Shown piece by piece: positions 43,550 to 64,000 of a stretch of DNA of 64,000 nucleotides (positions are counted from its first letter, which is position 1; every line of letters starts with the position of its first letter). Location: the NCBI GenBank assembly GCA_020718105.1, contig DYDA01000009.1:1-64000 (forward strand), written 5' to 3'. This DNA comes from Micavibrio sp. Its GTDB lineage: Bacteria > Pseudomonadota > Alphaproteobacteria > UBA9219. A program made the position numbers and the translations under genes. The notes below the pieces were generated by a model. The model saw only the letters and a program-made list of their open reading frames with translations. It did not search any database and had not been told where the DNA came from.

Positions 43550-43553
43550 CTCG

Positions 43554-45675: not shown

Positions 45676-45695
45676 TTTCTCTCCTTTACGGGGAA

Positions 45696-45904: not shown

Positions 45905-46102
45905 ATGCTCGATTTTGACACGATTACGAAGAAACACAGTGAAAGCCTAGTTCAGCAAATCGTCGAAACTTGGGAGCGTTATAACAATGTCCGCCATGAG
46001 CGTCCAATGATGCTCGAAGACCGCTGGGCGCACTTCATTGGTGCCACCAACGACTATCAAGTCAGTGCTTGCTCCACCGCCGCCCCTACGGCCACCAATT
46101 AA
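45905..46102 (+). CDS. hypothetical small protein (65 aa)
   Basis: First ORF of divergent + strand operon. Confidence 0.5.
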   Translation: MLDFDTITKKHSESLVQQIVETWERYNNVRHERPMMLEDRWAHFIGATNDYQVSACSTAAPTATN

Positions 46103-46114
46103 GGAGCAACCCAA

Positions 46115-46447: not shown

Positions 46448-46468
46448 ATTTGAAGAATAGGACTTGCC

Positions 46469-46831: not shown

Positions 46832-46851
46832 TTTATTAAGGCGCGAGAGCC

Positions 46852-47616
46852 ATGACAGACTTATATCTTATAACAGGTGCGCAAAGCAGAATGGCGCGAT
46901 CATTGTTGAAATGGTCTCGTGAAAAGCTGGCTGATGAAGCAAATGTCTCTCGCGGCACCATTCGTATTTTTGAAGACGATCAGCCTATTCGTGAATCCAA
47001 CATCCTTGATATACACAGCGTCCTTGATGCTCATGGCGTCGAATGCCATCCGGATGGCAGTGTGAGGCCGCGTTCAGACGGCATCAAGGATTTCCGTGGG
47101 CTTGGTGGCTGTGACCGTTTTTTTGCTAACATTGAAAAGATACTGAAAGACAAAGCCTCTGGCTTGGTGTGCAGGATCGGCAGCCAAGACATGTTGTCAA
47201 ACGTTACGGGACGGAATGGCCTAACAAATTTTGACCGGCTGCAGAACCTAAGCAAGGTCGCACCGGTGAGATGCCTGCTGACGGATCAGAACATATATCT
47301 GCCGGGGCCTCCTTCTTTTGAGGTCAGGGTATATCCGGAGCCCCCCATCAACTTGATTTTATCCGACTTTGCTTATGGCGATGAAGTCACGTTCGCCATC
47401 GAGCAGGATATCCGCTTCCATTTCCGCCAACCAGTTTATATGGTAATCGAGTCGGCCAAGTTTGTAGAAAAGACGTTAGGATATTTCGACAAACGCTGGC
47501 AGGCAGCCAAGCCCTATAAAACATCGACCACCAAAAGGTCGGCTTCAAGCTTTGGTCATCGGATAGTTCTGCCAGAAGACATTGAGACGCCAGAACAGCT
47601 TGTCTCCTGTTATTAG
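46852..47616 (+). CDS. XRE-family HTH regulator with C-terminal effector-like domain
   Basis: QSRMARSLLKWSREKLADEANVSRGTIRIFE; C-terminal PVYMVIESAKFVEKTLGYFDKRW parallels PQVIIIDDARFVESARKLFEIAW of 45031. Confidence 0.75.
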   Translation: MTDLYLITGAQSRMARSLLKWSREKLADEANVSRGTIRIFEDDQPIRESNILDIHSVLDAHGVECHPDGSVRPRSDGIKDFRGLGGCDRFFANIEKILKDKASGLVCRIGSQDMLSNVTGRNGLTNFDRLQNLSKVAPVRCLLTDQNIYLPGPPSFEVRVYPEPPINLILSDFAYGDEVTFAIEQDIRFHFRQPVYMVIESAKFVEKTLGYFDKRWQAAKPYKTSTTKRSASSFGHRIVLPEDIETPEQLVSCY

Positions 47617-47651
47617 GCACTTCCCATCGTCGGAGTTCTGTCCGACGTTTA

Positions 47652-48116
47652 TCAATCCATGTCTTTGATCACGACCATCGTGGGAAATAGCTCTCGATGC
47701 TCCACAAAATGAAAAATGGCATCGGGAGACAATACAGTTTCCCGAAGCGAAACCCATGTATCATAGGCTTGCTGGAAGTGCTTTTTTCTCAAGCCATGTC
47801 CTGCAACGATTTTCATTGTCGTGACGTTGCCCGTTTTGGCGGCACGCTCTTTCATCTCACCAAGATTGACGTCACTGGCAGGAGACGCAAAATGCTCAAG
47901 CATATGGTCGAGAATAGCCGAGCATACATAAATCACGCTTACCTGCTCCGCGAACCTATCGGGGGAGAGAAAGCGCCAGGTGGATTCCTCCACTTCATCC
48001 GGAAGCATAGGAAAATCCTCATCCCGCCCCGCATAGGCAATGAGAATACCGCAGAGGTCTTTCCTGATCGTATCGGGGAGAGACTTCACAAAAGATAAGA
48101 TGACCTGATTCAACAT
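47652..48116 (-). CDS. hypothetical protein
   Basis: ORF opposite to flanking operons; start uncertain. Confidence 0.45.
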   Translation of the reverse strand: MLNQVILSFVKSLPDTIRKDLCGILIAYAGRDEDFPMLPDEVEESTWRFLSPDRFAEQVSVIYVCSAILDHMLEHFASPASDVNLGEMKERAAKTGNVTTMKIVAGHGLRKKHFQQAYDTWVSLRETVLSPDAIFHFVEHRELFPTMVVIKDMD

Positions 48117-48247
48117 CGTCGCATTCTGGCGCGATTCAAAGAGGCAGACAACACAAAAACACTTGTCACGCCAAAACTTTTCCCACACGACCTCTGCCAA
48201 AACGGCCTCAATCAGAATTGCAATAAAGGTCAGAATTCTAGCCGAAA

Positions 48248-48335
48248 AGGCCAAAATGCAAATTCGGCCAAATTGACGGCCTAAAAACGAGCAAATAGGC
48301 CAAATTCTCCTGTGGAATCACGCGCGGCCAATATC
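48248..48335. promoter_or_regulatory. array of five (A/C)GGCC(A/T)A motifs upstream of the island operon
   Basis: Motif starts at 48248, 48265, 48277, 48297, 48325. Confidence 0.45.
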
Positions 48336-48377: not shown

Positions 48378-48674
48378 ATGACAAACGACAACACAGCAAT
48401 CGCATTACCACTCATCGGAACGCCGAAGTCAAACGCGCATCCGTTATCACGGGAAGCTGTTGCGGTTGAGATCATCCAAGACAATTTTGCATCGGATGCC
48501 GAGCGCGGTGAGTTTACGCAAGCCGTCAAGATGCATGGGGTTACTTTCCTATATCTCGCCAATTTTCCACTTCCACAGCCTTCTTCGCGTGACTTGAACA
48601 CGATTCAGAGACTGGCGCGTTTGTTGTCACGTTTCTGGCCGCAGGCATTGGTTATTGGAGGCTGCCATGAATAA
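48378..48674 (+). CDS. hypothetical protein (98 aa)
   Basis: First gene of tightly packed operon. Confidence 0.5.
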   Translation: MTNDNTAIALPLIGTPKSNAHPLSREAVAVEIIQDNFASDAERGEFTQAVKMHGVTFLYLANFPLPQPSSRDLNTIQRLARLLSRFWPQALVIGGCHE

Positions 48675-49101
48675 CAACGAGCAAATGCGCCTCTGCCTCA
48701 TGCTGGCATTTCAGAGCCTGATTTCACAAGGCGAAACTGCCAAGTCAAAAGATGCCGATCAAAAGATCATCGTGCTTGCAAAGCTCATGAATGAGTTTTG
48801 CGATCTGCACCTCAAGCAAACATTCCCTGAAAAGACCATCGAGCTTGCCGAAGACAAATGGGCAACAAAGATCGACGCCACGCTCAACATGCATATTGAA
48901 GAGCTGCAAAAGCGTGAACAGACACAGTTGCCCGAAGATCGAGAAACCCTCATCCAATTTTATGACCGCCTTCAGCAGCGCAAGGTGCGTCGGAAACAAT
49001 GGGTGTTCTATGCGGAAGCCTCAACGGGACAATTAGCCGATCTGGTCTTGAAATATCTCGACGAGGAAATCGAAGACAGAAAAACGGGAGGGTATCAATG
49101 A
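48667..49101 (+). CDS. hypothetical protein (144 aa from this start)
   Basis: Overlaps neighbours on both sides (operonic). Confidence 0.55.
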   Translation: MNNNEQMRLCLMLAFQSLISQGETAKSKDADQKIIVLAKLMNEFCDLHLKQTFPEKTIELAEDKWATKIDATLNMHIEELQKREQTQLPEDRETLIQFYDRLQQRKVRRKQWVFYAEASTGQLADLVLKYLDEEIEDRKTGGYQ

Positions 49102-49454
49102 CCAACAATGAAAATACGCAGATACACCTCAAAGATTGCGCCATCGGCCCATCGCAGCTACGCGCAGCGCGCGGCATGCTTGGCTGGTCTCGTGGCGAGC
49201 TTGCCAAGGAAGCAAGACTATCGGCGGAAACAATCAAGAATATCGAACACAGCGTTTATTCGCCAAAGGAAGAAACAATCAAAACCTTGGTTGAGGTCTT
49301 CGCGCGTCGAGGCATCCAGTTTGTTCAAAATGAAGCTGTCGTTTCCATTCCTGCCAGTTGCGGGCAAGAGGAAAGCACTCTGGTTTTTTCTCATATTGGG
49401 ATATTCCGTATGGAGCTCTCTGTCTCCGAAATCAGGGAGATAGGCCATGACTAA
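49098..49454 (+). CDS. XRE-family HTH regulator
   Basis: QLRAARGMLGWSRGELAKEARLSAETIKNIEH; ATGA overlap with previous gene. Confidence 0.85.
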   Translation: MTNNENTQIHLKDCAIGPSQLRAARGMLGWSRGELAKEARLSAETIKNIEHSVYSPKEETIKTLVEVFARRGIQFVQNEAVVSIPASCGQEESTLVFSHIGIFRMELSVSEIREIGHD

Positions 49455-49719
49455 AGCTACCCACCCCCACCGTATCGTCGATCAAATTACGACTGCGACA
49501 GACAAGAAATACGAGCCTGTCGCGCGCATGGCCGATGCCATCATCGATACGAGATTGGAAAGCGGAGATTGCTTGCCGCAAGACCTCCACGCCAAGGGCT
49601 TCACACATCAGGACATAACTGCACTTTGGCACTTCGCCAACGCGCTGGCCATCATCGAGCTTAAGTGCCGTACGAACGGCATCGGTTCCTCTTATAAACG
49701 GGAGGTGCGCTATGCCTAA
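49447..49719 (+). CDS. hypothetical protein (90 aa)
   Basis: Overlaps flanking genes; operonic. Confidence 0.5.
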   Translation: MTKATHPHRIVDQITTATDKKYEPVARMADAIIDTRLESGDCLPQDLHAKGFTHQDITALWHFANALAIIELKCRTNGIGSSYKREVRYA

Positions 49720-50248
49720 AGTCAAATTGCAGTTGGCAGCCAAACCGCTGGCTGAAATGTTGCAGATTCAAGCGCAGAACGAAAGCGAACCTAAGCATGT
49801 CAAAATCGTCGTTTTTGATGATCAAAACCGCGTGCTGACGGTCAAAAGCAAGACCCGCTTCGTCCTGCCCGGTGGGCGTGTGGAATGGGATGACGACGAT
49901 GACGAGGCTGCGGCGCGGCGCGAGGTTTTTGAAACGGCGAACATCACCCTCGGTCTGGTGACCCTCGTAACCCTCGTGAGAATCAAAGATCACAACAAAC
50001 AGATTACAAAAACGATGGTGTTCGTCGGGCGCATGTCTGGCAAGGAGCAAGCTGCGCCTAATCAAAAACAGAAGCATCAATTTGTAAGCAAGGAGGCGTT
50101 TTTAGTGGCGACAGGCTCTCGAAACGATCTTGTGCGCACATTAGTCGATGCTGCTTTCAAGGCTCTGGTCTCCGAGGAGATCAGGGAAGACCACGATCAG
50201 ACGATCCTGAGCGGACGTGAAAAATACAACAGCCAATCCCTCTTATAA
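49712..50248 (+). CDS. Nudix-fold hydrolase
   Basis: Degenerate Nudix box GGRVEWDDDDDEAAARREVFETANI. Confidence 0.75.
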   Translation: MPKVKLQLAAKPLAEMLQIQAQNESEPKHVKIVVFDDQNRVLTVKSKTRFVLPGGRVEWDDDDDEAAARREVFETANITLGLVTLVTLVRIKDHNKQITKTMVFVGRMSGKEQAAPNQKQKHQFVSKEAFLVATGSRNDLVRTLVDAAFKALVSEEIREDHDQTILSGREKYNSQSLL

Positions 50249-50260
50249 ATGGAGAATTTA

Positions 50261-51478
50261 ATGAGCAAGAACAATCAAGATACAATGCAATCAAACGCCT
50301 CAAAAGTCGTTTATCTCAACTATGCAGCAACATCGTTTCCCAAAAACCCAGATGTTGTGAATGTCTACAACGAAGCGCTTGCGCTGCTTCCAGGCGGAAA
50401 TCGTCAAGGCATCGGCAAAGGAGGCCTCGTCGACGAAGCGCGAGAAATGCTTGCAACAGGCCTTAATGTCGGTAAAGAAAACATCTACTTTTCTAGCGGA
50501 TCGACGCAAGCTCTCAACGAAATCATTTTGGGTTCTGTAAATTCGGGCGACCATTGCCTTTTCGATAATCGCTCACACAACTCGGTTGTGCGCCCTATGC
50601 ACGAGCTGCCTTCTTCCATCGATGCGGAAATGTGCCCGCTTTATCGAGAGGATGAAACCCTTGATCTTGACGCTCTGACATCGCGCCTTAACACGACTAC
50701 AAAACTTGTCTGCTTGGTTCACGCCAGCAACGTGACGGGCACGGTCTATGACATAAAAACGGTTATTTCCGCCGTCAGAGAGAAAGCTCCCCAATCAGTT
50801 GTCTTAGTCGATGCCGCTCAATCAGCTGGCGCCATTGATCTGAAGGACGCGCTCAAAGCGGATTATGTGGTATTTCAAGGGCACAAACACCTTCATGCCC
50901 CACATGGCGCGGCAGTCGTGGTGGCCAAGCGGCACGTTCGCCCCGTCATTTTTGGAGGCGGCCAAACTTTAACGGGTCAGGAAGGCGACCCGCATCTGCT
51001 CGAAGTCGGGACGCAGAACCACGCTGCCATTTACGCCACCGCCGTTGCTTTCGGCATCGCGTCGGACAATCTTCTTAAGCACCAGACACACGAACGCGCC
51101 CTCTACACAAAGCTACGGTCGGCGCTTGACGGGGTTTATGGGCTAGAACCGCTGCCAGTCAACCCCAAGTTCGACCACGTCTCTATTATGGCCTTCCGCA
51201 CTAAGATGGGCACGCCGGAAGGAGATTGGGTTCCGTTCTTGCAGTCGAAAAATATCATCGCTCGCGGTGGGCTGCATTGTTCCCCGTGCCTGCATGAACA
51301 GCTTGGTTTGACGCAGTACGGAACGCTGCGCCTTAGCCTCGGCTGGTACACAACAGACAAGGACGTCGAAGCAGCGGCGCACGCCATTCATGAGTTTTCG
51401 GATCATCTGAAGACGCATGGTCCGGCACATCCTGTACAGACAAGTTGTTCGGTGTCGTTTCCCTCTAACCGAAAATAA
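50261..51478 (+). CDS. class V aminotransferase / cysteine desulfurase-family protein
   Basis: YLNYAATSFPKNPDVV, HASNVTGTVYDI, VDAAQSAGAIDL, GHKHLHAPHG (PLP Lys), ARGGLHCSP catalytic-Cys-like motif. Confidence 0.85.
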   Translation: MSKNNQDTMQSNASKVVYLNYAATSFPKNPDVVNVYNEALALLPGGNRQGIGKGGLVDEAREMLATGLNVGKENIYFSSGSTQALNEIILGSVNSGDHCLFDNRSHNSVVRPMHELPSSIDAEMCPLYREDETLDLDALTSRLNTTTKLVCLVHASNVTGTVYDIKTVISAVREKAPQSVVLVDAAQSAGAIDLKDALKADYVVFQGHKHLHAPHGAAVVVAKRHVRPVIFGGGQTLTGQEGDPHLLEVGTQNHAAIYATAVAFGIASDNLLKHQTHERALYTKLRSALDGVYGLEPLPVNPKFDHVSIMAFRTKMGTPEGDWVPFLQSKNIIARGGLHCSPCLHEQLGLTQYGTLRLSLGWYTTDKDVEAAAHAIHEFSDHLKTHGPAHPVQTSCSVSFPSNRK

Positions 51479-51515
51479 TTCAGTTTTAGGGCATATATTT
51501 TTTGAGGATTATTCT

Positions 51516-52631
51516 ATGAACGAACAATTTAAACCGGCTATCGCCACAATTATGAACCTTCTTGGGCAGTCAAATATTGAACTGCCCAATGAAGGGGGCG
51601 CTTTGGAGACGTTCCTAGACCGTGCGCTAGAATATCTTGCGGCAAGCCATGCCATTGGCTCTGTTGCCGAGCAGAAAGCCTATATTCTAAGCCGCCTCGT
51701 TCCGGCAGAAAAGGCATCAAAGGGAAAGTTCAGCTTTGTTCTTGAACACAACATCGATCCTCAAAAAGGATCGACCGTTCCCACAATCCAAGTCAGCGGA
51801 ACCAGCGGAAACTATCACGCACTTATCATCAAGAGGCAGGACACCCTGCTTAAGGGCTATAAGTGCCAGCAACAACTTAAAATAGCTGGAAACCTCTGCC
51901 AAGTCGGATTTGCAACAAGCCGCATACGGGCGGATGTTGATTTGGCCAGAGAGTTCCCCACACTGGACAGCCTGAAGAAAGGCTGCCGTATGGAAGGGCG
52001 TCCCATCATCTACTTCCTTGGTGCGGCACGGCGCTTTCCCGATGGAGGGGAGCAAGCCTCCGCTATCAAAGGACAAGTCAAGGCCGTCAACGCCATTTTT
52101 GATACGTTGGAGAGTGCCTTTGGTAACAACGTTATCATTGGAACGGGCGGTTGGGCTGGGACAAAAGAAGGATCGTTGGGCATTCCCCGCATTGGTTACC
52201 TGCATGCTGTTTCGACTAACCAATTGATTTTGACGACAATGCCGCGTGTTGGGGCTTATGACCGGCATGAAAACCCAACACTCGAAGTGTTCTGCGGACA
52301 GGAATGGGGCGATGACTCTGCCGTGCTGGCCGCAACCTGCGATGCTGCCTTTGTCTTCAGGCCACATGGGACGTGGACACAAATCGAGGTCGAGAATTTG
52401 CTCGCACAGGACAAGCCCTTCGTCGTGATCGATGACCCTAAAAACAGTCAATTGAGGTCAGACGAAAATAAGAAGCGGATCAGCACCCAAGGGGGGGACT
52501 ATTTTGTCTATCGCCACCCTAAGACGGCGGCCAATGATTTATTGCGGAAGCTCAGCGAAGCGGGTTTTATATACTCACGGCGACCGTCTCGCCGCCCCGC
52601 CGCTTTGCTTGCCGAACCCGCGCACAAATGA
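51516..52631 (+). CDS. Rossmann-like protein, possibly SLOG/LOG-type nucleotide-binding
   Basis: VIIGTGGWAGTKEGSLGIPRIGYLHAVSTN ... DAAFVFRPHGTWTQIEVENLLAQDKPFVVID resembles LOG GGGxxGxMG...PGGxGTxxE layout. Confidence 0.45.
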   Translation: MNEQFKPAIATIMNLLGQSNIELPNEGGALETFLDRALEYLAASHAIGSVAEQKAYILSRLVPAEKASKGKFSFVLEHNIDPQKGSTVPTIQVSGTSGNYHALIIKRQDTLLKGYKCQQQLKIAGNLCQVGFATSRIRADVDLAREFPTLDSLKKGCRMEGRPIIYFLGAARRFPDGGEQASAIKGQVKAVNAIFDTLESAFGNNVIIGTGGWAGTKEGSLGIPRIGYLHAVSTNQLILTTMPRVGAYDRHENPTLEVFCGQEWGDDSAVLAATCDAAFVFRPHGTWTQIEVENLLAQDKPFVVIDDPKNSQLRSDENKKRISTQGGDYFVYRHPKTAANDLLRKLSEAGFIYSRRPSRRPAALLAEPAHK

Positions 52632-52657
52632 AGAGAATCGAGAACACAATGCATACT

Positions 52658-53356
52658 GCTACCAACATATTTTTCGATCTGGACGGAACATTGACTGATC
52701 CCAAGGAAGGGATCGTCAACAGCATCGTTTTTGCTTTGGAACAAGTCGGACATGCCATCCCAACGCAGAAAGACCTCAACAATCTGATCGGGCCTCCTTT
52801 ACGGGATTACTTTGAGCGGGAGCTGGACGAGGAAAAAGCCAAGACCGCGATGAAGAATTTTGTACAGCATTACGATTTTGAAGGAAAGTGCCTGACGGAA
52901 AACGCGCTTTATCCAGAAATACCGAGTGTGCTCAACTTGCTTCGTCAACACGGCAAGAGGTTGTTCGTAGTTACGGCGAAGCCAAAGACCATTGCTGAAA
53001 AAATCGTCCGCCACTTTGGATTGGATTCGTACTTTCTTTGTGTATATGGAGCCGAACAGGACGAAACGCGGAGTGATAAAGTGAAGCTAATCTCCTACGT
53101 TCTCGGTCGTGAGCAGATAGCCCCCCAATCCGCCGTTATGATCGGCGACCGCAAACATGACATTTTGGGAGCACTAGCAAACGGTGTGGCCAGCATTGGC
53201 GCACTATGGGGCTATGGCGAGCCAGGCGAGTTGAAAGCGGCGGGGGCGCAACGGCTGGCCAAGACGCCGCAAGATATCGTGAGATTTCTGTTGGAACCCG
53301 CTGTCCGATCTGTGGGACACGGATGCAGAATTTCCAAACCTTCTACAATGTGTTGA
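52658..53356 (+). CDS. HAD-superfamily phosphatase (Gph-like)
   Basis: FFDLDGTLTDPKEGIVNS, LFVVTAKPKTIAEKIVRHFGL, SAVMIGDRKHDILGALANGV. Confidence 0.9.
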   Translation, partial: ATNIFFDLDGTLTDPKEGIVNSIVFALEQVGHAIPTQKDLNNLIGPPLRDYFERELDEEKAKTAMKNFVQHYDFEGKCLTENALYPEIPSVLNLLRQHGKRLFVVTAKPKTIAEKIVRHFGLDSYFLCVYGAEQDETRSDKVKLISYVLGREQIAPQSAVMIGDRKHDILGALANGVASIGALWGYGEPGELKAAGAQRLAKTPQDIVRFLLEPAVRSVGHGCRISKPSTMC

Positions 53357-53366
53357 GGCAGCAATA

Positions 53367-54680
53367 ATGACTGAAACATTTAGTTTTGATCTTGAGAAAG
53401 TTAGAACGAGAAACGCTCTCATTCACGCCAACTCCATCTTTTCAGGTCGGGGCGTGCGTCCAGATGCGCATCAGTCCGTTACGAACATTAGACCGTTCGT
53501 CCGCGCCGTTGCCGCAGGCTCGCATCCGCAAATTTCTGTCGGCGAGAAAAAAAGTATCGTTCTTATTGGCCTCGACTCGATCAAACACAGTTTCGCGGAG
53601 AAAGTTTTCAAGCCAGATCACTTGGTTTGCATGACAAGCGTTTTTCCTTCGACGTCGATTCGTGTGTGGCCAACGGCCCTGACGGGATATAGCCCCGAGA
53701 CGTTTGGTTCCGTTGGCCCCGTTTTCTATGCCAAGGAAATCGACGCGCTGTACAATGCGCTGGATGACTCCTATCGGGTTCAAGAGTCGTTTGTTGTCGA
53801 TCCCAAAGTAACCGACCAGCACCCCATAGGTAGCAAGGACAATCTTTTCAGTGACCTAAATGTTCTTGGTTTCCAAACCGTCTGCATCAACGGGTTCTAT
53901 GCTCATAAAAAGAGTCGCTGGTCTCAGGCCATGCAAGAGAATGCCGGACGCTATGTGACGTCAAAGTACGATTGGCGCAATATCACGATGCAACCCGACC
54001 TAATTGTCGCTTCCATTCGGGAAGACGTTTCTGAAGCCTTGACATCAATGAACAAAGGGCAAAATGCGCTTGTCTGGACGCTATCAGATATCGATTGTTA
54101 CGTGCATGAACATGGATATTCAGACAATTTAAAAACAGCGCTAGACGAATTAGACGGGTTTTTCCGCGAATTGGCTAATAATGGCCACCTTGTAATCGCC
54201 TTTGCGGATCATGGGCAGGTTCCTCAAGTCGTCAGTACCTTTACCGAAGGCTGGGACAATATCCACAGCGATGAGAATTGCCGTAGGCCATCCGGCGGAG
54301 CTGGAAGAGTCCGGTGGAGTTATCCGCGTCCGGGGCACGAACAAGCCCTTAAAGAGCAAATCGAAGGTCTTTTGGGCGATACCGCCGCCGTCATATGGCG
54401 CGCCGATCTTGAGAAGCTCGGCATCCTTTCATTAGGAGAAAATCTTAAGAGCCAGATTGGAGAGATTGTGGTTCTCGGTCTGACCGAGGACTTTCCGTTG
54501 GCCCTGCACGGTGACGGCTTCATATATGAACACGGATCCGTAAGCAGAGACGAGATGCTCGTCCCCCTGATGATTTACAAGGCTGCCGCGAAAGAGGCGT
54601 CCGCCCATACACTTACTGTGCCATCGAGAGAAGACGCTTTGGCTCACCCCGCAACCTTCAACCCGAAACTGGGAGGATAA
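53367..54680 (+). CDS. alkaline-phosphatase superfamily, nucleotide pyrophosphatase/phosphodiesterase-like
   Basis: [52 protein letters not shown] metal-site series. Confidence 0.75.
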
Positions 54681-54682
54681 AA

Positions 54683-56140
54683 ATGTCCGACAAATCTAAA
54701 AGTGAGAAAAACATGAAAAATCAGATGAAATTCTTCAATACATTGACGCGCGAGGCGCAGCCTCTTGCCCCGATTAATGCGAACGAGATAGGGTTGTACA
54801 CATGCGGCCCAACTGTTTACAGCTACGCCCATATCGGCAACCTGCGCACATATATTTTCGAGGATATCTTGCGCCGCGTTCTTGAAAAATCTGGCTATAG
54901 CGTCAAGCATGTGATGAACATCACCGATGTTGGCCATCTGCAATCCGATGCTGATGAAGGCGAAGACAAGATGGAAGTGGCGGCCCGGCGCGAAAAGAAG
55001 TCACCTTGGGAAATCGCTAAGTTTTTCGAATCCACCTTTTTCAGCGATTGCGCGGATTTGAATGTCCAGCGCCCACATGTCGTTTGCCGCGCTACAGAGC
55101 ATATTCCGGAAATGATCGAATTCGTGAAAGCTCTTGAGGAAAAAGGCATCGCTTATGCCGTCGACGGCAACGTCTATTACGATACGTCCAAGTTTTCTAG
55201 CTACGCTGATTTTGCACGGCTTGATTTCTCTCAAATGCAAGAATTTGGGCGCGTCGAGCAGGATTCGCGCAAACGCAATCCCCAAGACTTTGTGCTCTGG
55301 TTCTCTCAATCGAAATATCCGAACCAGATCATGAAATGGGATTCTCCTTGGGGCGTCGGTTTTCCGGGATGGCATATCGAATGCTCGGCGATGGCCTCAA
55401 AATATCTTGGCGAGCAATTCGACATTCATTGCGGCGGCATCGACCACATTCCCGTTCACCACACGAACGAAATCGCGCAAAGCGAAGGCCGTTTCGGACA
55501 CCGGTGGGTCAATCATTGGATGCATGGCGAGTTTCTCGTCTTGGACAAAGGAAAAATGTCGAAGTCCAAAGGAGGTACGCTGACGGTCGCTACCTTGAAA
55601 GAACTTGGCTATGACCCGATGCACTTCCGCTATCTCTGCTTGAATGCACATTACCGAAGCCAGCTTAAGTTCAGCTACGACTCCTTGGATGGTGCGCGCA
55701 ACGCCTATGAAACGCTCCAGCACAAGCAGGCGGATTGGGCGGCAGAACCAGAATCGCCCCTGTCGGCTCAAGACAAAAAGTTGGTCGCCGATTACGAAGG
55801 GCAATTTTGGAGCGCGATGACCGATGACCTCAATGCGCCCCTAGCGTTGTCCGCGCTTTGGACGGGACTTCGTGACGACCGGATGTCAACGACGGCGAAA
55901 CAAGCTCTTTTTGGGACGGTGAATGAGGTTCTCGGCATCACAAAGCCGGAAGAAGAAATGAAGTTGGCTCCTGAATTGGAACAGCTCATCAAAGATCGAG
56001 AAGCGGCACGTGGCCAGAAGGATTGGAAGCGAGCCGATGAGCTTAGAGGCAAGCTGGAAGATCAAGGCATTCTTATAAAGGATAGACCCAATGGAACGGA
56101 TTGGTTCGTAAAAAAAAACAAAACTAGCCTGACACCCTAG
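54683..56140 (+). CDS. cysS: cysteinyl-tRNA synthetase
   Basis: [57 protein letters not shown]; full-length C-terminal region present. Confidence 0.94.
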
Positions 56141-56193
56141 TTCTACAAGACAAAAAAGACTGATTTTACAACAACTTATTTTGGGAGGCTAAA

Positions 56194-57237
56194 ATGAGCA
56201 CAGGGGAAATTTATGCCCTGACGGCAAAAGAGGCAACGGCACCGGCCATCGATCCTTGGAACAATGTAGTTCAAGAAGATTTAGCGCCGTTCATTCAATT
56301 CCACGGATTGCAGACCACTGATGAAATTCAGGGGCTCCTCGACAACGAGAAGCTGAGGCCGCTTGCTAAATCTGCGGTCTCCGGCATTGGCATTACAGAC
56401 GATGTCATTGGTTTCCTTCAAAACAAGCCGTCTTCCGTGGTTGCTATTTCTGGTTTCGATACGGCAGGAGATCTGCACTTTGGCAATCTTCTTGTCCTCA
56501 AGCAGCTCATGATCCTTGGACAGAAAGGATGCCAAGTCAGGATTCCGCTTGCCGATCTTGAGGCCATTGCCGCGCGCGGTGAAGACAGCAAAACCTCTGA
56601 GGATCGCGCGAATTCGACCATGATTCCCAATCTTGTTCAGTTGGGATTTAAATCCGAAAGTGTTTACATCCGATCCACAGTTCCACGAATTCTGGACATG
56701 ATGGCGGTCGTTTCTCGTGGCACAGCTCCTGATAAGATGGAAAAACTCTATGGCCGCGCACTTTCTGGGCCGGAGATTTTTTCACTGACTTTTATGGCAG
56801 CTGACCTGCTTCGGCCTCAAACAGAAGGCATCAAACACACGATTGCCGTTTATGGCATCGATGAAGCACCCCACATCCGGGCGATTAATCAGATTGCTAT
56901 TGATGTAGGCCTGAAGCCCATTGCCGGTCTTTTTAGTCCCCTTGTGCCGAGCAAGCAAAACTCGTCAATCAAGATGAGCAAAAGCCTTCAGAAACGTGGT
57001 GCAAACCTGTCACTGACGGCGGCTGTCGAGGACGCACGCGATACGGTCATTCAGTACGAAGTACAAGACCCTTGCATGGTGAAAGCCTTGCGGAAGCATT
57101 TTTTGATTGGGTCTGTTCTGAGGGATGATGCCGTCGAGTGCGACCTCGAATGCGCCGCCTGCAAAAGAGAGTCCGGAGCTGCAATTTTCGGCTTTATGGC
57201 GAACAAAAACCTTATTCAGAAACTCGCAAATTTATAA
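56194..57237 (+). CDS. divergent tryptophanyl-tRNA synthetase-like class I aaRS
   Basis: ISGFDTAGDLHFGNLLVLKQ (HIGH-like), SIKMSKSLQ (KMSKS), TIAVYGIDEAPHIRAINQIA. Confidence 0.75.
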   Translation: MSTGEIYALTAKEATAPAIDPWNNVVQEDLAPFIQFHGLQTTDEIQGLLDNEKLRPLAKSAVSGIGITDDVIGFLQNKPSSVVAISGFDTAGDLHFGNLLVLKQLMILGQKGCQVRIPLADLEAIAARGEDSKTSEDRANSTMIPNLVQLGFKSESVYIRSTVPRILDMMAVVSRGTAPDKMEKLYGRALSGPEIFSLTFMAADLLRPQTEGIKHTIAVYGIDEAPHIRAINQIAIDVGLKPIAGLFSPLVPSKQNSSIKMSKSLQKRGANLSLTAAVEDARDTVIQYEVQDPCMVKALRKHFLIGSVLRDDAVECDLECAACKRESGAAIFGFMANKNLIQKLANL

Positions 57238-57255
57238 ACCAAAGGAGATTTTCAA

Positions 57256-58263
57256 ATGGATAAGACAGAAAAAGCACTTAAAGTGATTGCGCCTTATATC
57301 GTCAAGACGCCTTTGCTCAAATCTAAGGATTTAAGCAAAAAACTCGGCTGCGAACTCTACTTCAAATATGAGCACCTGCAGGTGGCGGGATCCGTGAAGG
57401 CTAGAGGTTCTTTCCTGAAAGTTTTTTCCGCCGAACGGACAAATCCAAAGGGTTATGTGACAGCATCAAGCGGCAACCACGGTCTGAGCATTGCAATGGC
57501 TTCTCAGCAGGCTGGCGTAAAGCTGAAACTGTTCATGCCCGAAACAACACCTGAATCGAAAATTCAGAAAGTCAAAGCCTTGGGCGTCGACTTGGGCATA
57601 ACCGGAACCTCATGGGACGATGCGAACGACGCCGCCTTCGCCTACGGAAAAGAGACCGGAGCCGAATTTATCCATGCCTTTGCCGATCCGACCATCATCT
57701 TGGGACACTCGACGGCTGCGCTGGAGTGTCTTCAGGATATGCCCTCGGTTGATATCGCTATTTGTTCCATCGGCGGTGGCGGCATTGCACACGGATTTTT
57801 GGGCTATCTAAAAAGAAAGCTCCCCAATCTGCGTTGCTATGGCGTCGAAACCTATGGCGCAGAGTCCATGCTGACGAGTTTTCAGCACAATCGCGTTATG
57901 ACGATTCCTGAAATCACATCGAAGGCATCCGCCATCGGCGTGCGCGCGCCCGTGGACGAGACGTTCAGTTTTGCGAAAAAGAACTTGAATGGCCTTGTCG
58001 CTGTCAGCGATTACGCTGCTGCGGTCGCCCAGACGACGATCCTGAATTACGACAAACAGCTCGTCGAGCTTGCGGCATCCTGCTGCGTGGCCGCCCTGCA
58101 AGCCGAGAAGATACCCAACATTCAAGGAAAGAAGGTGCTGGTGCTCTTGTGCGGCGGCAACACCACCATGTCTGAGCTTGGCCTTGAAGCTACAGCCCAG
58201 CCGAAGCCGCCAACATTTCTGGCAAACGACAAAAGAGCTGTTGTGTCCTGCTGTCAATTATAA
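57256..58263 (+). CDS. PLP-dependent threonine dehydratase/serine racemase-fold enzyme
   Basis: FKYEHLQVAGSVKARGS, TASSGNHGLSIAMASQQAG, SIGGGGIAHG, LLCGGNTT. Confidence 0.88.
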   Translation: MDKTEKALKVIAPYIVKTPLLKSKDLSKKLGCELYFKYEHLQVAGSVKARGSFLKVFSAERTNPKGYVTASSGNHGLSIAMASQQAGVKLKLFMPETTPESKIQKVKALGVDLGITGTSWDDANDAAFAYGKETGAEFIHAFADPTIILGHSTAALECLQDMPSVDIAICSIGGGGIAHGFLGYLKRKLPNLRCYGVETYGAESMLTSFQHNRVMTIPEITSKASAIGVRAPVDETFSFAKKNLNGLVAVSDYAAAVAQTTILNYDKQLVELAASCCVAALQAEKIPNIQGKKVLVLLCGGNTTMSELGLEATAQPKPPTFLANDKRAVVSCCQL

Positions 58264-58275
58264 TTGGGGAACAAA

Positions 58276-59121
58276 ATGAAAGATAAACAAAAAATTATTT
58301 TTACGATCATGGGATGCGGTTCGGCTTATGGCGTGCCGACGGCAGGAAACGGATGGGGTATCTGCGATCCCAATCATCCGGCGAACAGGAGACTGGCCTC
58401 GTCCGTTGTTCTGCGTTCGGAAACCGACACGATCATCATCGATCTTGGGCCTGACTTCCGCCAGCAGACATGCACGCACAATGTACGAGAGATATCCGGC
58501 GTTTTGTTTACGCATTCCCACGCTGACCACATCACCGGGATATTTGAGCTGCCAATGTTTACGCAATGGCAAAGGGGTGACATCCATTGTTTTGCGACAC
58601 CTGAAACCTTGGTGGGCATCCAAAAAAGATTTCATTACCTGTTTGATCCGAACATCACGGTCTATCACTACGGCGGCGGAAGAATTCTTTGGCATGAAAT
58701 CGAATATGGCCAAGAAATGGTCGTTGGCGACATGCCAATCCTTCCTTTTCAACAAGATCATGGCTTTATGTCCAGCACAGGGTTTCGCGTCGGCGACATA
58801 GCCTATTCGACGGACGTGAAAAAGATCGACGAAGCCAACAAAGCCTTTCTCAAAGATCTGAAAATATGGGTGCTCGATTGCAACGGCATAGAGGTCAGCC
58901 CTGTCCACAATCACCTCGATCAGGCTCTCGCGTGGATTGAGGAGATAAAGCCTGAACGCGCCATCCTGACGCATCTCAGCGAGACCGTAGACTACGTTAC
59001 AACAAGCAAGAAACTGCCGCCAAATGTCGAACTGGCAGTCGACGGCATGTCCTTTGAAACCTTTGTCCAAAGACCGACATGCCGTCGTCCTTTGCGTCAA
59101 TATTCACCCAGCAACATATAG
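58276..59121 (+). CDS. MBL-fold metal-dependent hydrolase (PhnP-like)
   Basis: MGCGSAYGVPTAGNGWGICDPNHPANRR, LFTHSHADHITGIFEL. Confidence 0.88.
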   Translation: MKDKQKIIFTIMGCGSAYGVPTAGNGWGICDPNHPANRRLASSVVLRSETDTIIIDLGPDFRQQTCTHNVREISGVLFTHSHADHITGIFELPMFTQWQRGDIHCFATPETLVGIQKRFHYLFDPNITVYHYGGGRILWHEIEYGQEMVVGDMPILPFQQDHGFMSSTGFRVGDIAYSTDVKKIDEANKAFLKDLKIWVLDCNGIEVSPVHNHLDQALAWIEEIKPERAILTHLSETVDYVTTSKKLPPNVELAVDGMSFETFVQRPTCRRPLRQYSPSNI

Positions 59122-59131
59122 GAGAAGAGAT

Positions 59132-60163
59132 ATGAACGACGAAAACGGAAACTTCATTTACAAAGCTCGCCCTTCGCTTCAGGCGGGCACAAAAATTGGC
59201 ATCGTGTCACCCGGAAGCTGGGACGATTCGCCCAATTATGGGTTTCTCGATGCGCTTAGGGCGTTTTGGGAAAAGAAGGGTTTTGATGTCTGCATCCATC
59301 CGCAGAATTACTACAAGGACGGCGTGCTTGCTGGTTCCGACGCGGCCAGAGCCAAAGCGTTTATGGACATGGTCAAGAATCCCGAAATTGGCGCAATCAT
59401 GTTTGCGCGCGGATGTACGGGTTCCATCCATATTCTCGACATGCTCGATTATGATGCCATTAAGGCCAATCCAAAACCTATCATTGGTTCTTCCGATACA
59501 ACGACGCTGCTTCACGCGATAACAAAGAAAAGCGGCGTTGTGACATTCTATGGACCTATGGGCTGTCACTTCGCCGATCCGGCGAATGACCAGCGCACCT
59601 GCGATGACCTAATCACGGCGATCAATGCCGGAAATGAAGAGTACGAAATGACGTATCCTGAAGTCAGTTGTTTGCGTGAGGGAAAAGCCGAAGGATGGCT
59701 TGTTGGCGGGCACATGAACCGCATGCAGCTTCTCATGGGGACGCCGTATGACTGCCTTCCTCAAAGATCGCTGGTCGATGGCGTCGTTCTGTTTATTGAG
59801 ACTGTGGACACAACCCGGCTTGAAATCGACAACATTTTAAGCCAGTTCCGTTTGGCCGGAAAGTTGCAGACCGTGCGGGGGCTTATTGTCGGGGAAATGC
59901 TGGGCGTACAAGATGGGGAGACCAGCTTGGCGCGAAAGGGAGAACGAACTTATGGCCGTGATGTTCAAGGCATTATCGCCAAGGCCATGAAAGAAATATC
60001 GCCCCGCGTTCCGGTCGTTTGGAACTTTCCCTGTGGGCACGGTTCGTATCTCTCGACGATGCCCATCGGGAGCCACGTTAGCCTCGCTACGAGCAAGCAA
60101 GATGGAACACGGCTCTCTTTCCGGCCTGTGCCGAAAAGTGCGCCGATTATGTGTTATCTGTAA
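59132..60163 (+). CDS. S66-family peptidase (LD-carboxypeptidase / MccF-like)
   Basis: IGIVSPGSWDDS, MFARGCTGSIHILDMLDYDAIKANPKPIIGSSDTTTLLHAI, GWLVGGHMNRMQLLMGTPYD, NFPCGHG. Confidence 0.88.
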   Translation: MNDENGNFIYKARPSLQAGTKIGIVSPGSWDDSPNYGFLDALRAFWEKKGFDVCIHPQNYYKDGVLAGSDAARAKAFMDMVKNPEIGAIMFARGCTGSIHILDMLDYDAIKANPKPIIGSSDTTTLLHAITKKSGVVTFYGPMGCHFADPANDQRTCDDLITAINAGNEEYEMTYPEVSCLREGKAEGWLVGGHMNRMQLLMGTPYDCLPQRSLVDGVVLFIETVDTTRLEIDNILSQFRLAGKLQTVRGLIVGEMLGVQDGETSLARKGERTYGRDVQGIIAKAMKEISPRVPVVWNFPCGHGSYLSTMPIGSHVSLATSKQDGTRLSFRPVPKSAPIMCYL

Positions 60164-61106
60164 ATAGCTCGGTGGAAAGGTAACGCTCGGCACTGTCTGG
60201 CAAAAGCGTGACGATGGTCTTTCCGGCCATTTCGGGGCGCTTGGCAAGCTGGATCGCTGCCGCCACCGCTGCTCCGGATGATATACCAGCAAGGATGCCT
60301 TCCTTGCGCGCCAGATCCCGCGCGTGAGACAAGGCATCCTCGTTGGTGATATTCAAAATTTCATTAATTCCGCTGACGTTCAAAATGTCAGGGACAAAAT
60401 TGGCCCCGATACCTTGGATCTTGTGAACGCCGGGTTTTCCACCTGTCAGGACGGGGCTGTTGGCAGGTTGAGCTGCGACTATCCTGATATCGGGTTTGTG
60501 CTTGCGCAAGCCTTCAGACACGCCTTGCACAGTTCCTCCCGTTCCGACACCGGCCACAAAGACATCGACTTGCCCGTTTGTGTCCGCCCAAATTTCTTCT
60601 GCTGTGGTGCGCGTGTGAATGGCGGGATTGGCTGGATTGGAAAATTGACGCGGCATAATCGCATTCAGGCGCGTTTTGACGACCTCTTCAGCCTTGCGGA
60701 GCGCGCCCGCCATGCCTTCTTCTGCGGGCGTCAGGATAATTTCAGCGCCCAAGAAGGACAGAAGCTTGCGTCGCTCAATAGACATATTGTCCGGCATGGT
60801 CAAGACAAGACCATAACCCTTCACGGCGGCGATAAACGCAAGACCGATGCCTGTATTTCCAGATGTCGCTTCAACAAGAACGCCACCGGAAACCAGCGTG
60901 CCGTCCCGTTCGGCAGCTTCGATCATGCCCAATGCGGTCCTGTCTTTAACCGATGAAAGCGGGTTGAAGTATTCCAGTTTCGCCAGAACGGTGGCAACGC
61001 TTCCAGCCTCTTGAGGCATCCTGTTTAAGCGGACAAGCGGTGTTCCGCCAATGGTCTCAATGATATTTTGATAAGTGATACCGCGTGCGGGTGATAGATT
61101 CGACAT
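60147..61106 (-). CDS. cysK: cysteine synthase A
   Basis: IGGTPLVRLNR, LEYFNPLSSVKDRTALGMIE, EATSGNTGIGLAFIAA, GVGTGGTVQGVSEGL. Confidence 0.96.
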   Translation of the reverse strand: MSNLSPARGITYQNIIETIGGTPLVRLNRMPQEAGSVATVLAKLEYFNPLSSVKDRTALGMIEAAERDGTLVSGGVLVEATSGNTGIGLAFIAAVKGYGLVLTMPDNMSIERRKLLSFLGAEIILTPAEEGMAGALRKAEEVVKTRLNAIMPRQFSNPANPAIHTRTTAEEIWADTNGQVDVFVAGVGTGGTVQGVSEGLRKHKPDIRIVAAQPANSPVLTGGKPGVHKIQGIGANFVPDILNVSGINEILNITNEDALSHARDLARKEGILAGISSGAAVAAAIQLAKRPEMAGKTIVTLLPDSAERYLSTELFTDNT

Positions 61107-61122
61107 GGATTTTCTCCTCGTT

Positions 61123-61983
61123 TCAATGATTTTCGGGAATAACGGCTTGATCCATTTCGTCTGCCGGTCGTGCACTTCTTGGCGCACCGACGATTTTTGC
61201 GGGGATGCCAGCAACCGTAGTGTGGGGAGGTACGTCCCGAAGCACTACGCTTCCTGCAGCTATGCATGCTCCGGCACCTATTTCGACATTGCCAAGGATC
61301 GACGCGCCCGCACCGATCATAACGCCCGAGCGCACTTTGGGGTGACGGTCGCCTTGCTCCTTGCCCGTTCCACCGAGCGTGACATTGTGAAGGATGGAAA
61401 CGTGATCTTCAACAATTGCCGTTTCTCCGATGACGAGGCCCGTCGCATGGTCAAGCATAATGCCGCTGCCAATCTTTGCGGCGGGGTGAATGTCTACGTC
61501 GTACAAAAGAGAACTGCGGTTCTGAAGGAGCAACGCATCGTCTGTTTCTCCATTCAGCCAAAGCACATGAGCCAGACGATGAATCTGAAGGGCATGGAAG
61601 CCCTTAAAATACAGAAACGGCGTCAAAGCGTCCGTGACGGCGGGATCTCGTGCGACAACGGCCTCCAAGTCGCGGGAGGCCGCCAAAACAAGATCGGGGT
61701 GTCTTTCATAAAGACCAGACAGCCTTTTTTCCAAGACGCTCGGCGCAAGCAGCGCGTCCGTTTGTTGGTGCGAAAGTGTTCGGCTTAGGCTTTGGGGTAG
61801 ACTCTCACTGTCCAAAATGATCGTCTGGATCAGGGTTGCCGATAAAGAGCCGTGTCGAAGCCTGTTTTCGGCAGCTAGGCGAAGTTTGAGCCAAAGCCCC
61901 TCTAAAGGCGAGGAACCTGCCTTTAGCAAAAAAGAGGCGGATTGTTTTGATGAGCTGAGCGCTCGTAAAGCGAAAATGTTCAT
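61123..61983 (-). CDS. cysE: serine O-acetyltransferase
   Basis: DIHPAAKIGSGIMLDHATGLVIGETA, HNVTLGGTGKEQGDRHPKV hexapeptide repeats; upstream of cysK. Confidence 0.95.
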   Translation of the reverse strand: MNIFALRALSSSKQSASFLLKAGSSPLEGLWLKLRLAAENRLRHGSLSATLIQTIILDSESLPQSLSRTLSHQQTDALLAPSVLEKRLSGLYERHPDLVLAASRDLEAVVARDPAVTDALTPFLYFKGFHALQIHRLAHVLWLNGETDDALLLQNRSSLLYDVDIHPAAKIGSGIMLDHATGLVIGETAIVEDHVSILHNVTLGGTGKEQGDRHPKVRSGVMIGAGASILGNVEIGAGACIAAGSVVLRDVPPHTTVAGIPAKIVGAPRSARPADEMDQAVIPENH

Positions 61984-62100
61984 TTGAGGTCTCTGTGGTT
62001 CGCCTGAAAATCAGGCTTGTTGTTCCTTGTGGCGCAAGCGCCTCTAACCTCGCGGCAACCGCGAGAAAAATTAGTTACAAGGACAACAACAGAGAAACAT
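61984..62100 (-). promoter_or_regulatory. candidate cysteine-attenuator leader of cysE-cysK
   Basis: Leader ORF MFLCCCPCN; Cys-codon segment TGTTGTTGTCCTTGT complementary (one bulge) to downstream ACAAGGAACAACA; hairpins CTCGCGGTTGCCGCGAG, GGCGCTTGCGCC, GCCTGATTTTCAGGC. Confidence 0.65.
62071..62100 (-). CDS. Cys-rich leader peptide MFLCCCPCN
   Basis: ATG TTT CTC TGT TGT TGT CCT TGT AAC TAA on - strand; GGAG 10 nt upstream. Confidence 0.6.
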   Translation of the reverse strand: MFLCCCPCN

Positions 62101-62198
62101 GAACCTACGGCTCCATATAGTTAACGAGGTCATTTTACTTATTTTCAGCAATGAAGTCAACCAAATGCGTTCTACACTGGTTGCAAGGCAAGAAGATT

Positions 62199-62432
62199 TC
62201 ATCGGCACGGAAGCAACAGCTTGCGAAAAACACTATAATCTATAAGCACTTCAGTAAACGCAGCATCTTTCGGAGCATTTTCGACCTCAGCAGCCAGCTT
62301 GTCCTGAAACTCGCGGCTATATTCCTTGATCGGTGGGCAAACGCAGGCGGGGTTAGAACTTGCCGTTTCGCAGGCGCTTAACGAGATCAGCACGAGTGCG
62401 AGGAGCATCCATCGTTGCACGGAGTTGAGCAT
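62199..62432 (-). CDS. Rz1-like outer-membrane spanin lipoprotein
   Basis: Lipobox LISLSAC, Cys/Pro-rich CETASSNPACVCPPIKEYS; overlaps the upstream i-spanin-like ORF in another frame. Confidence 0.65.
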   Translation of the reverse strand: MLNSVQRWMLLALVLISLSACETASSNPACVCPPIKEYSREFQDKLAAEVENAPKDAAFTEVLIDYSVFRKLLLPCR

Positions 62433-62592
62433 CTTTGATCTCCACGATTTTCTTGAGTTGGTCATAGCGTTCTGCGGTGCGGCCTGATTGCTTCGCGCCG
62501 AGAAGCACAGCGGCCACAGATGCGGCAATCGCGCCCCAGCCGATGATTTTTATGAGGTTGCTGGAAAACCAGCCCGTTATAATCGTCCACAT
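62353..62592 (-). CDS. phage i-spanin (Rz)-like small TM protein
   Basis: N-terminal TM then GRTAERYDQLKKIVEIKDAQLRATMDAPRTRADLVKRLRNGKF. Confidence 0.6.
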   Translation of the reverse strand: MWTIITGWFSSNLIKIIGWGAIAASVAAVLLGAKQSGRTAERYDQLKKIVEIKDAQLRATMDAPRTRADLVKRLRNGKF

Positions 62593-63257
62593 CAGCGCAG
62601 CCCTTTCCGATTGTCGTCGATACGCGCCCAGATCATCACCCCGATGCCGATCAGCGTGATTGCCAAAAGCAGCCATTTGGCAATGTCGAGATAAGGCACG
62701 AGTGTTTGAAGCGCGTCACGGGCTGGATCAAGGCCGTCTTGTACCGCCTGCAGCGCCCCAAGGCCAACGGTTGCCGCCGTAGCGGCCTTACCTCCCCTTA
62801 CGGTGCGCGTGTGTTGCAGATTTTTGGCCGGAGGCTCCACACCTGCCAGCACCAAGGCTTTGTCGATTTGTGCGCCCGTGTAAGGCTGCTGGCCGTTCTC
62901 GTGCTGGATAATGGCTTCGACAAGGGGCTTCAGGTCGGCGTGGGCGTGCATGTCAAGCGTTTGGTCTGGTGCAAAACCCGTCTCGTCCGAAACAGCCTTG
63001 GTGTACGCCGCCGTGTCGTTTTCATTCGGGGGAGCCCAGCGCTCGATGATCTGCCGTATTGTTCGCAACCCGTGTTTGACCTGATAGACGATTAAGACGC
63101 GCGCCATCGCTCGGATGCCATAAATCTGGCTCTTAAACATGAAAAAATCAGGATCCGTCTGCTGTTCAGCCAACCCTTGCCATGCGGTATCCGTCCGGCG
63201 AAGATTGCCCGGATTGTTATTACGGACACCTCGTGATAGTTTTTCTTGAGTCGACAT
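62592..63257 (-). CDS. phage P5-like structural/lytic protein
   Basis: SRGVRNNNPGNLRRTDTAWQG, YGIRAMARVLIVYQVKHGLRTIRQIIERWAPPNENDTAAYTKAVS; C-terminal TM. Confidence 0.75.
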   Translation of the reverse strand: MSTQEKLSRGVRNNNPGNLRRTDTAWQGLAEQQTDPDFFMFKSQIYGIRAMARVLIVYQVKHGLRTIRQIIERWAPPNENDTAAYTKAVSDETGFAPDQTLDMHAHADLKPLVEAIIQHENGQQPYTGAQIDKALVLAGVEPPAKNLQHTRTVRGGKAATAATVGLGALQAVQDGLDPARDALQTLVPYLDIAKWLLLAITLIGIGVMIWARIDDNRKGLR

Positions 63258-63284
63258 AAGTAAACCTCCTTTCAAGGATTTAAG

Positions 63285-64000
63285 ATGCTGGAACTGGGAC
63301 ATGTTGAGCGCTTGGAATTGCGCTCCGTTTGGGCAAGCGAACCCCATGACTTCACGCCTTGGCTGGCCAAGACTGAAAATCTCGAACGTCTTGGAAACAC
63401 CATCGGTATGGATCTAGTGACGGATCAGATCGAGAAAGGGGTCGGCCCTTTCAGCGCAGATATTTTGTGTAAAAACACGCTCGACGACTCATGGGTGGTG
63501 ATCGAAAATCAAATCGAAAAAACCGATCACACTCACCTTGGACAAGTGCTGACCTATGCGGCGGGTCTTGACGCTTCTACAGTCATTTGGATTGCTGCCC
63601 GTTTTACGGATGAACACCGCGCCGCCATCGATTGGCTGAACAAAAACACGACCGACAACATCCAGTTCTTTGGGGTTGAAATTGAAATCCTGAAAATTGG
63701 ATCGTCTTTGCCCGCGCCTCAATTCATGGTCGTTGCCAACCCGAATGACTGGAGCCGCAATGTCTCTGCCACCGCCCGCCGTTCTCAATCGGGCGAAATG
63801 AACGACACTCAAAAGCTTCAGCTGGGGTTCTGGTCGGGTTTGTCCGAATATCTTGCCGAGAACACAGCTTTCCAACTGCGCTCTCCGCGTCCGCAAGGAT
63901 GGGCGGATTTCAGCCTTGGGAAAACAAATACGCTGTTGCGTCTTTCGATCAGCACACAGGCTCGAAAACTTGCGGCTGGCGTTTATCTTTACGACAACAT
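63285..64000 (+). CDS. DUF4268-type protein, nuclease-like N-terminus, truncated by window end
   Basis: LGNTIGMDLVTDQIEKGVGPFSADILCKNTLDDSWVVIENQIEKTDHTHLGQVLTYAAGLDA. Confidence 0.8.
   Translation, partial: MLELGHVERLELRSVWASEPHDFTPWLAKTENLERLGNTIGMDLVTDQIEKGVGPFSADILCKNTLDDSWVVIENQIEKTDHTHLGQVLTYAAGLDASTVIWIAARFTDEHRAAIDWLNKNTTDNIQFFGVEIEILKIGSSLPAPQFMVVANPNDWSRNVSATARRSQSGEMNDTQKLQLGFWSGLSEYLAENTAFQLRSPRPQGWADFSLGKTNTLLRLSISTQARKLAAGVYLYDN

Follow-up and report, generated by a model that had tools for sequence, protein, structure and literature searches.

The window analysed here, 64,000 nucleotides of a Micavibrio sp. genome (contig DYDA01000009.1, positions 1 to 64,000), holds at 50249-61983 the cargo of a hypervariable slot in a temperate phage family of an alphaproteobacterium, an assignment made with high confidence. 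The slot carries the core (50249-60163) of a ten-gene plus-strand operon that runs from a Nudix hydrolase gene to an S66 peptidase gene (49712-60163) and includes a spare cysteinyl-tRNA synthetase (CysRS) and a protein resembling tryptophanyl-tRNA synthetase (TrpRS); tentatively, this operon may be a producer-plus-immunity set for a cysteine- or aminoacyl-type inhibitor. A preliminary description had drawn an island from 48378 to 61983, and the genes that it named are all present, intact and on the plus strand, as judged from open reading frames and family searches. It had, however, overlooked the prophage context: the island is prophage cargo, the Nudix gene is a phage gene, the stretch 48378-50248 (o98, o148, a helix-turn-helix (HTH) gene, o90 and Nudix) is a module conserved in sibling prophages rather than a set of island genes, and the ends of the island were misjudged.

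The borders of the slot were found by comparison with sibling prophages. The host genome (G000) is a draft metagenome-assembled genome (MAG) of 1.91 Mb that is 96% complete, and the sibling loci also come from draft MAGs, one of which (G004) has 6% contamination. On the left, the DNA shared with sibling prophages stops within the Nudix gene (49,959-50,241); on the right, it restarts at Rz1 of the lysis cassette (62,235-62,305). The 12 kb in between are unrelated in every sibling prophage, the borders having been tested in seven or more loci. Since both flanks are shared with the siblings and nothing between them is, the island is a prophage cargo slot and the Nudix gene is part of the phage core. 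This gene is 56-63% identical in 7 sibling loci, where it adjoins the regulator module; the order o98-o148-HTH118-o90 is kept in 6 sibling loci, with 83-87% identity for o148 in the nearest siblings and 96.6% for HTH118 in a second prophage of the same genome, on contig C17. On the right, cysE is followed by Rz1, Rz, endolysin, holin-like, DUF2793-type and tail genes up to the contig end, and the sibling loci have both this lysis/tail side and, on the opposite side, o98-o148-HTH118-o90-Nudix. The endolysin has relatives, 66-87% identical, in 11 of 59 related genomes and a second copy in the host's own C17, and the tail genes are 64-94% identical in a sibling prophage and in IMG/VR contigs. Two IMG/VR contigs of 41-42 kb have tail, lysis and holin genes that are 45-70% identical and a different cargo, which in one of them includes, by eye, a Z1-like ATPase. 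In C17, an integrase-like gene pair, again recognised by eye, lies beyond the regulator module; o148 itself had no match in phage and viral collections. Conserved modules thus flank unrelated DNA, and these modules are found in virus contigs or near integrase-like genes, as befits a prophage cargo slot.

The preliminary description had drawn a parallel to systems with extra aminoacyl-tRNA synthetases (aaRSs), and spare enzymes of this kind do recur in the same slot of the siblings, an aaRS being present in 5 of the 7 slots for which both borders are available. With about 25 aaRS genes per 1.9 Mb, a random 10-kb stretch would hold one about 12% of the time, which gives a binomial probability of about 4e-4; this value is only a guide, having been calculated post hoc for loci whose genomes are related to each other. 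The slot in C17 (L073 5569-12648) contains genes for a pyridoxal phosphate (PLP)-dependent decarboxylase-like enzyme, a radical SAM enzyme, YcaO, TyrRS and an AspA/AstE-like hydrolase; no precursor peptide was seen in this operon, the product of which is possibly tyrosine-derived. In G004, one slot on contig C2 (55-66 kb) carries TyrRS, HAD, two AMP-ligase-like genes, an aminotransferase-fold enzyme, an AspA/AstE-like hydrolase and SucCD-like genes, another on the same contig (10-21 kb) carries an APH-type kinase, MetRS, an amidohydrolase and an MR_MLE enzyme, and the slot on C123 carries helicase-type defence genes followed by ThrRS, threonine synthase (ThrC), an APH-type kinase and DUF711. 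No MetRS besides the cargo copy was found in this draft MAG, so the cargo MetRS may be the working copy. The slots of G012:C38 and G010:C30 are without an aaRS. TyrRS (80% identical) and the AspA-like hydrolase (71%) are paired in two slots with differing partner enzymes, and this constant pair behaves as an immunity pair would.

The cargo aaRSs are full-length enzymes of foreign types. Identity between cargo and chromosomal type is 33% for CysRS, 26% for TyrRS, 45-46% for ThrRS and 48% for MetRS; as a baseline, chromosomal ThrRS is 82% identical between the two species, and chromosomal MetRS 73% between two genera. Among loci with only the lysis border, G004:C99 (L098 1367-15878) begins with DISARM-like genes, after which come two TyrRSs, an MFS transporter, a radical SAM enzyme, a thiamine diphosphate enzyme and an iminopeptidase. 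The two TyrRS genes there differ from each other, HADs are also present, and the whole resembles a biosynthetic cluster with an exporter and spare targets. Several other lysis-bordered slots contain restriction-like, helicase or metal-efflux genes, and the cargo of G001 includes argG and argH.

The gaps between the genes of the operon, from Nudix to S66, are 0, 16, -4, 10, 2, 53, 18, 0 and 10 bp; because they span only -4 to 53 bp, the block behaves as one operon. The longest gap is thus 53 bp, although the gene of a heptapeptide precursor could lie elsewhere; scans of the sequence for sigma-70 promoters and terminators gave scores no better than chance. The S66 gene most likely starts at 59132 (Table 1), and its last 19 or so codons extend into the cysK-cysE block, the operon abutting cysK, which lies on the opposite strand. 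The convergence of the operon on cysE-cysK had been correctly described, although these genes form a separate 2-kb block and not a part of the operon.

Table 1. Coordinates of the slot, its cargo and its flanking modules in the window.
Feature	Position	Strand	Match or remark
Prophage regulator module, outer part	43133..48254	.	DNA homology to sibling prophages G000:C17, G012:C38
Outer module: p146, DUF2156/GNAT-like, HTH+sensor genes		-	
Outer module: small paralogues	46115-46831		
Outer module: HTH254	46852-47616		
Outer module: o200			
Regulator module, inner part: o98, o148, HTH118, o90	48378..49719	+	
Nudix hydrolase, phage core, left slot border	49712..50248	+	PF00293
Class V PLP enzyme, cysteine-desulfurase/C-S-lyase-like	50249..51478	+	PF00266 5e-49
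LOG/SLOG-like protein	51516..52631	+	GTxxE-type motif, no family match
HAD phosphatase	52628..53356	+	PF13419 5e-31
Alkaline-phosphatase-fold phosphodiesterase (NPP/PhnA-like; type I phosphodiesterase fold)	53367..54680	+	PF01663
Spare CysRS, full length	54683..56140	+	TIGR00435 471 bits, cut-off 340
TrpRS-like protein, shortened C-terminus, altered pocket	56194..57237	+	PF00579
Threonine-dehydratase-fold PLP enzyme (PALP)	57256..58263	+	PF00291; TIGR01127 232 bits, below cut-off
PhnP-like metallo-beta-lactamase-fold phosphodiesterase	58264..59121	+	PF12706; NF038231, PhnP below cut-off
S66 peptidase, MccF-like	59132..60163	+	PF02016+PF17676; 3sr3 MccF 2e-26
Horizontally shared cysK-cysE block	60106..62125	-	cysK 60147-61214; cysE 61123-61983
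Prophage lysis cassette Rz1, Rz, endolysin; right slot border	62199..63347	-	phrog_873 6.7e-64

A second CysRS in the host genome, on contig C32, and an ordinary bacterial TrpRS, on C42, make the cargo CysRS and the TrpRS-like protein extra copies, as the preliminary description had supposed, and a housekeeping role for them was rejected. For cysE and cysK the result was divided: a second cysE, 55% identical, was found on C11, but no second cysK, nor any other threonine-dehydratase-like gene, was found in the 96% complete MAG, and the cysK of the window, the only cysteine synthase found, may be the cell's sole copy. The cysK-cysE block is 91% identical at the nucleotide level over 2021 bp to a block in G010:C11, which belongs to another genus of the family and lacks the rest, and therefore it travels separately. 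The proposal that the pair supplies the operon with cysteine locally was not supported: it is weakened by the separate transfer of the block and by cysK being the sole cysteine synthase found.

The proteins of the operon were assigned with Pfam, NCBIfam, PADLOC 2023 and PDB, using the cut-offs of each family model. The cargo CysRS is complete, with the HIGH and KMSKS motifs and the zinc ligands conserved in the alignment and a CysS_C anticodon domain, and it is closer to plasmid copies (46-47% identical) than to the host CysRS. The TrpRS-like protein is of the archaeal type (3a04, 8e-16) and keeps HIGH and KMSKS. Compared with archaeal TrpRS, its pocket is altered from LTQ-ADIL to LTFMAADLL and from IDQDP to IDEAP, and after KMSKS it is missing a large part of the helix pair and tail that form the tRNA-binding region; against the NCBIfam trpS model it scores 56 bits, the cut-off being 177, and so does not qualify as an ordinary TrpRS. 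In human TrpRS, the glutamines altered here help to hold tryptophan, and since they are replaced, the substrate specificity of the protein has probably changed; the shortened enzyme probably also charges tRNA poorly. The closest solved structures to the S66 protein are MccF proteins, with which its Ser-Glu-His triad aligns (IGSSDTT, LFIET, CGHG), and, having both N and C domains, it fits an MccF-type S66 peptidase by sequence. In the class V PLP enzyme, the HCSP motif is present, and the match to TIGR01977 (206 bits) is below the cut-off. As for the SLOG/LOG-like gene, it is intact as described, but the label given to its product comes from a GTxxE-type motif, because no library (Pfam, NCBIfam, PADLOC or PDB) recognises the protein; a search of 385 genomes from the class did not find it either. 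AlphaFold2 run on single sequences of the LOG-like and TrpRS-like proteins gave unusable models (pLDDT of about 34).

The phosphodiesterase has two clear relatives in all the searches, one on a Pantoea plasmid and one in an alphaproteobacterial MAG. Both lie in biosynthesis-like clusters with genes for FAD/NAD(P)-binding proteins, LLM oxidoreductases, amidases, ATP-pyrophosphatase-like proteins and nucleotide enzymes. The Pantoea cluster (L009 12454-26128), which looks undescribed and is partly common to the MAG JANSWW01 (L010), consists of genes for a nucleotidyltransferase, a PEP-utiliser-like protein, an FAD/NAD(P)-binding protein, the phosphodiesterase, an aminotransferase, an M28 peptidase, an amidase and a SurE nucleotidase.

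No locus with the whole set was found when the TrpRS-like protein was sought in 59 relatives, when the LOG-like protein and the phosphodiesterase were sought in 385 genomes from the class and in viral contigs, plasmids and phages, or when genome contigs were searched with a phosphodiesterase profile; the pattern-based scans speak for close relatives only. Among PLSDB plasmids, no close homologue of the TrpRS-like protein, the phosphodiesterase or the LOG-like protein was found. Plasmid CysRS copies of Burkholderia and Sphingomonas were rejected as relatives of the island, since they share no neighbourhood beyond the synthetase. On Burkholderia stagnalis plas2 (L047 13025-15206), the spare CysRS precedes genes for an ASCH-domain protein and a MoaD/ThiS sulfur carrier. 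Plasmid pOCN014 of Vibrio coralliilyticus (L046 12992-27329) has a nonribosomal peptide synthetase (NRPS) cluster with a spare CysRS, a serine acetyltransferase, a class V PLP enzyme, a PaaK-like ligase and a TauD oxygenase, and this cluster is a candidate source of a CysRS-directed product.

What, then, might the operon do? The recurrence of spare aaRSs suggests that the slot operons may produce compounds that target these enzymes, or give protection from such compounds. Producers of albomycin, mupirocin and indolmycin have a second, resistant aaRS (PMC9437257), as does the producer of agrocin 84 (PMC5059758), diverged aaRSs such as AcmF and SbzA serve as assembly enzymes (PMC12945691), and MccF cleaves aminoacyl- and peptidyl-nucleotides (PMC9239234); the operon offers a candidate for each of these roles, that is, for a resistant aaRS, an assembly aaRS and an MccF-type peptidase. 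We infer a chemistry in which the operon would make a small cysteine-derived or aminoacyl compound and shield its maker: the class V PLP and PALP enzymes would alter cysteine or an amino acid related to it, the TrpRS-derived enzyme would activate an amino acid as an adenylate or hand it on, and the LOG-like, HAD, phosphodiesterase and PhnP-like enzymes would assemble or trim a nucleotide or phosphoester moiety, while the spare CysRS would sustain protein synthesis and the MccF-like peptidase would destroy stray product.

Several observations weigh against production of an inhibitor. The PLP, HAD and metallo-beta-lactamase enzymes belong to generic families; family searches recognised in the operon neither an NRPS, a ThiF/MccB enzyme or an exporter, as the preliminary description had noted, nor a carrier protein or a precursor peptide, with no ThiF domain in any of its proteins and no transporter among the genes at 48378-61983. 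By that description's own standard, a gene set not conserved together in any relative counts against it, and in the narrow form this was the outcome, no relative of the whole operon having appeared in any search. Slots carrying an aaRS came from only two species within a single genus, one of these being the MAG with 6% contamination; aaRS genes are often duplicated (25,913 cases in 26,837 genomes, PMC4787780); and some slots combine an aaRS with ordinary amino-acid biosynthesis genes (ThrRS with ThrC, and cysE-cysK here), which would also fit plain metabolic cargo. The earlier aminoacyl-nucleotide proposal is partly supported: it has on its side the extra cysS and trpS, the MccF-like peptidase, the phosphodiesterase kin in biosynthesis-like clusters and the recurrence of spare aaRSs in the slot, and against it that the searches found the set nowhere else and recognised no ThiF/MccB enzyme, NRPS or exporter. 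A literature search found no paper that joins prophage, aaRS, biosynthetic cluster and self-resistance. A wider version, in which the phage family swaps whole producer-plus-immunity operons (for Cys/Trp-, Tyr-, Thr- and Met-type antimetabolites) in a dedicated slot beside the lysis genes, is doubtful, and so, to the same degree, is its corollary that lysogens would produce a small-molecule weapon while receiving the resistant synthetase from the phage.

The main rival to production of an inhibitor is unlikely too: the slot would carry metabolic or "essential-gene" cargo, with amino-acid biosynthesis genes and matching aaRSs supplying the host or replacing lost genes and so hindering loss of the prophage. 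It would account for the sole cysteine synthase found in the host genome, the sole MetRS found in G004, the threonine synthase adjoining ThrRS, and argG and argH in G001. However, CysRS, TrpRS, TyrRS and ThrRS each have a host copy, the missing host copies may be assembly gaps, the cysK-cysE block was transferred separately, and the altered TrpRS-like protein, the phosphodiesterase, the LOG-like and S66 proteins, YcaO and the radical SAM enzymes would be left unexplained. Another possibility, distinctly improbable, is an island for resistance alone, in which the spare CysRS, the MccF-like peptidase and the phosphoesterases destroy or tolerate imported Trojan-horse aminoacyl-nucleotides. The closeness of the S66 protein to MccF, the intact CysRS and the occurrence of stand-alone immunity genes outside producer clusters (PMC9239234) agree with this; it is not clear what the PLP enzymes, the LOG-like protein and the altered TrpRS paralogue would do in such an island, and no known natural CysRS inhibitor was found in the literature searched. 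Least probable of all is anti-phage defence or signalling by nucleotide enzymes (LOG-like, Nudix, phosphodiesterase) with aaRSs, for although other slots hold type III restriction-like, helicase/methylase (DISARM-like) and Z1-type genes (translations judged by eye), PADLOC 2023 gave no defence-system core match, only weak or generic ones of the class V enzyme to SspA/DndA and of Nudix to PDC-S07, the operon encodes no nuclease, membrane protein, TIR protein or similar effector, and Nudix belongs to the phage core.

Some neighbouring genes deserve mention. The HTH+sensor gene, the DUF2156/GNAT-like gene (MprF C-terminal-type) and p146 form a small overlapping operon on the minus strand (43554-45702), which recurs in G012:C38. 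Elsewhere, DUF2156 enzymes use aminoacyl-tRNA, and a link to the spare synthetases is therefore possible. Eight HTH+sensor paralogues, about 26-34% identical to that of the window, stand in a row beside the MetRS cargo of G004:C2 (L095 2162-8587). Outside the slot of G012:C38 (L105 8404-9903), a second MetRS, 26% identical to the usual one, lies beside a nucleotidyltransferase-like gene.

If the operons do make aaRS-directed inhibitors, prophages of poorly known bacteria would be a source of undescribed compounds of this kind, each with its own resistant target, the slot would be a direct place to look for them, and natural resistant variants of CysRS, TyrRS, ThrRS and MetRS would be gained. 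Even if the cargo is metabolic, it is unusual, and open to test, that one prophage slot has repeatedly captured foreign aaRSs.

Comparison with known systems sets the operon apart. Like microcin C (mcc), it combines an MccF-like S66 peptidase with nucleotide-type enzymes on mobile DNA, but no MccB/ThiF adenylyltransferase or MccC exporter was found in it, and it has CysRS and a TrpRS-like enzyme. Like agrocin 84 (pAgK84, with the self-immunity LeuRS AgnB2), it has, on mobile DNA, a full-length spare aaRS next to nucleotide-related enzymes, but the aaRS is CysRS, not LeuRS, and the mobile element is a prophage, not a plasmid. The absence of a ThiF enzyme and of an exporter, together with the different synthetase, puts the operon outside both systems. 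Ascamycin (acm), with the aaRS-type gene AcmD, the diverged aaRS-like AcmF and the hydrolase AcmE, and SB-203208, in the assembly of which the aaRS-like SbzA is used (PMC4257720, PMC12945691), offer parallels, although their sulfate-activation, sulfotransferase and radical SAM genes are missing here and their synthetases are of other classes and types. The pOCN014 cluster likewise brings together a CysRS (46% identical), a serine acetyltransferase and a class V PLP enzyme, but it is NRPS-based and its PLP enzyme is only 26% identical. Finally, the "moron" regions beside prophage lysis genes also hold variable genes, defence genes included, between conserved phage modules, whereas here long, aaRS-containing metabolic operons occupy most slots of one genus.

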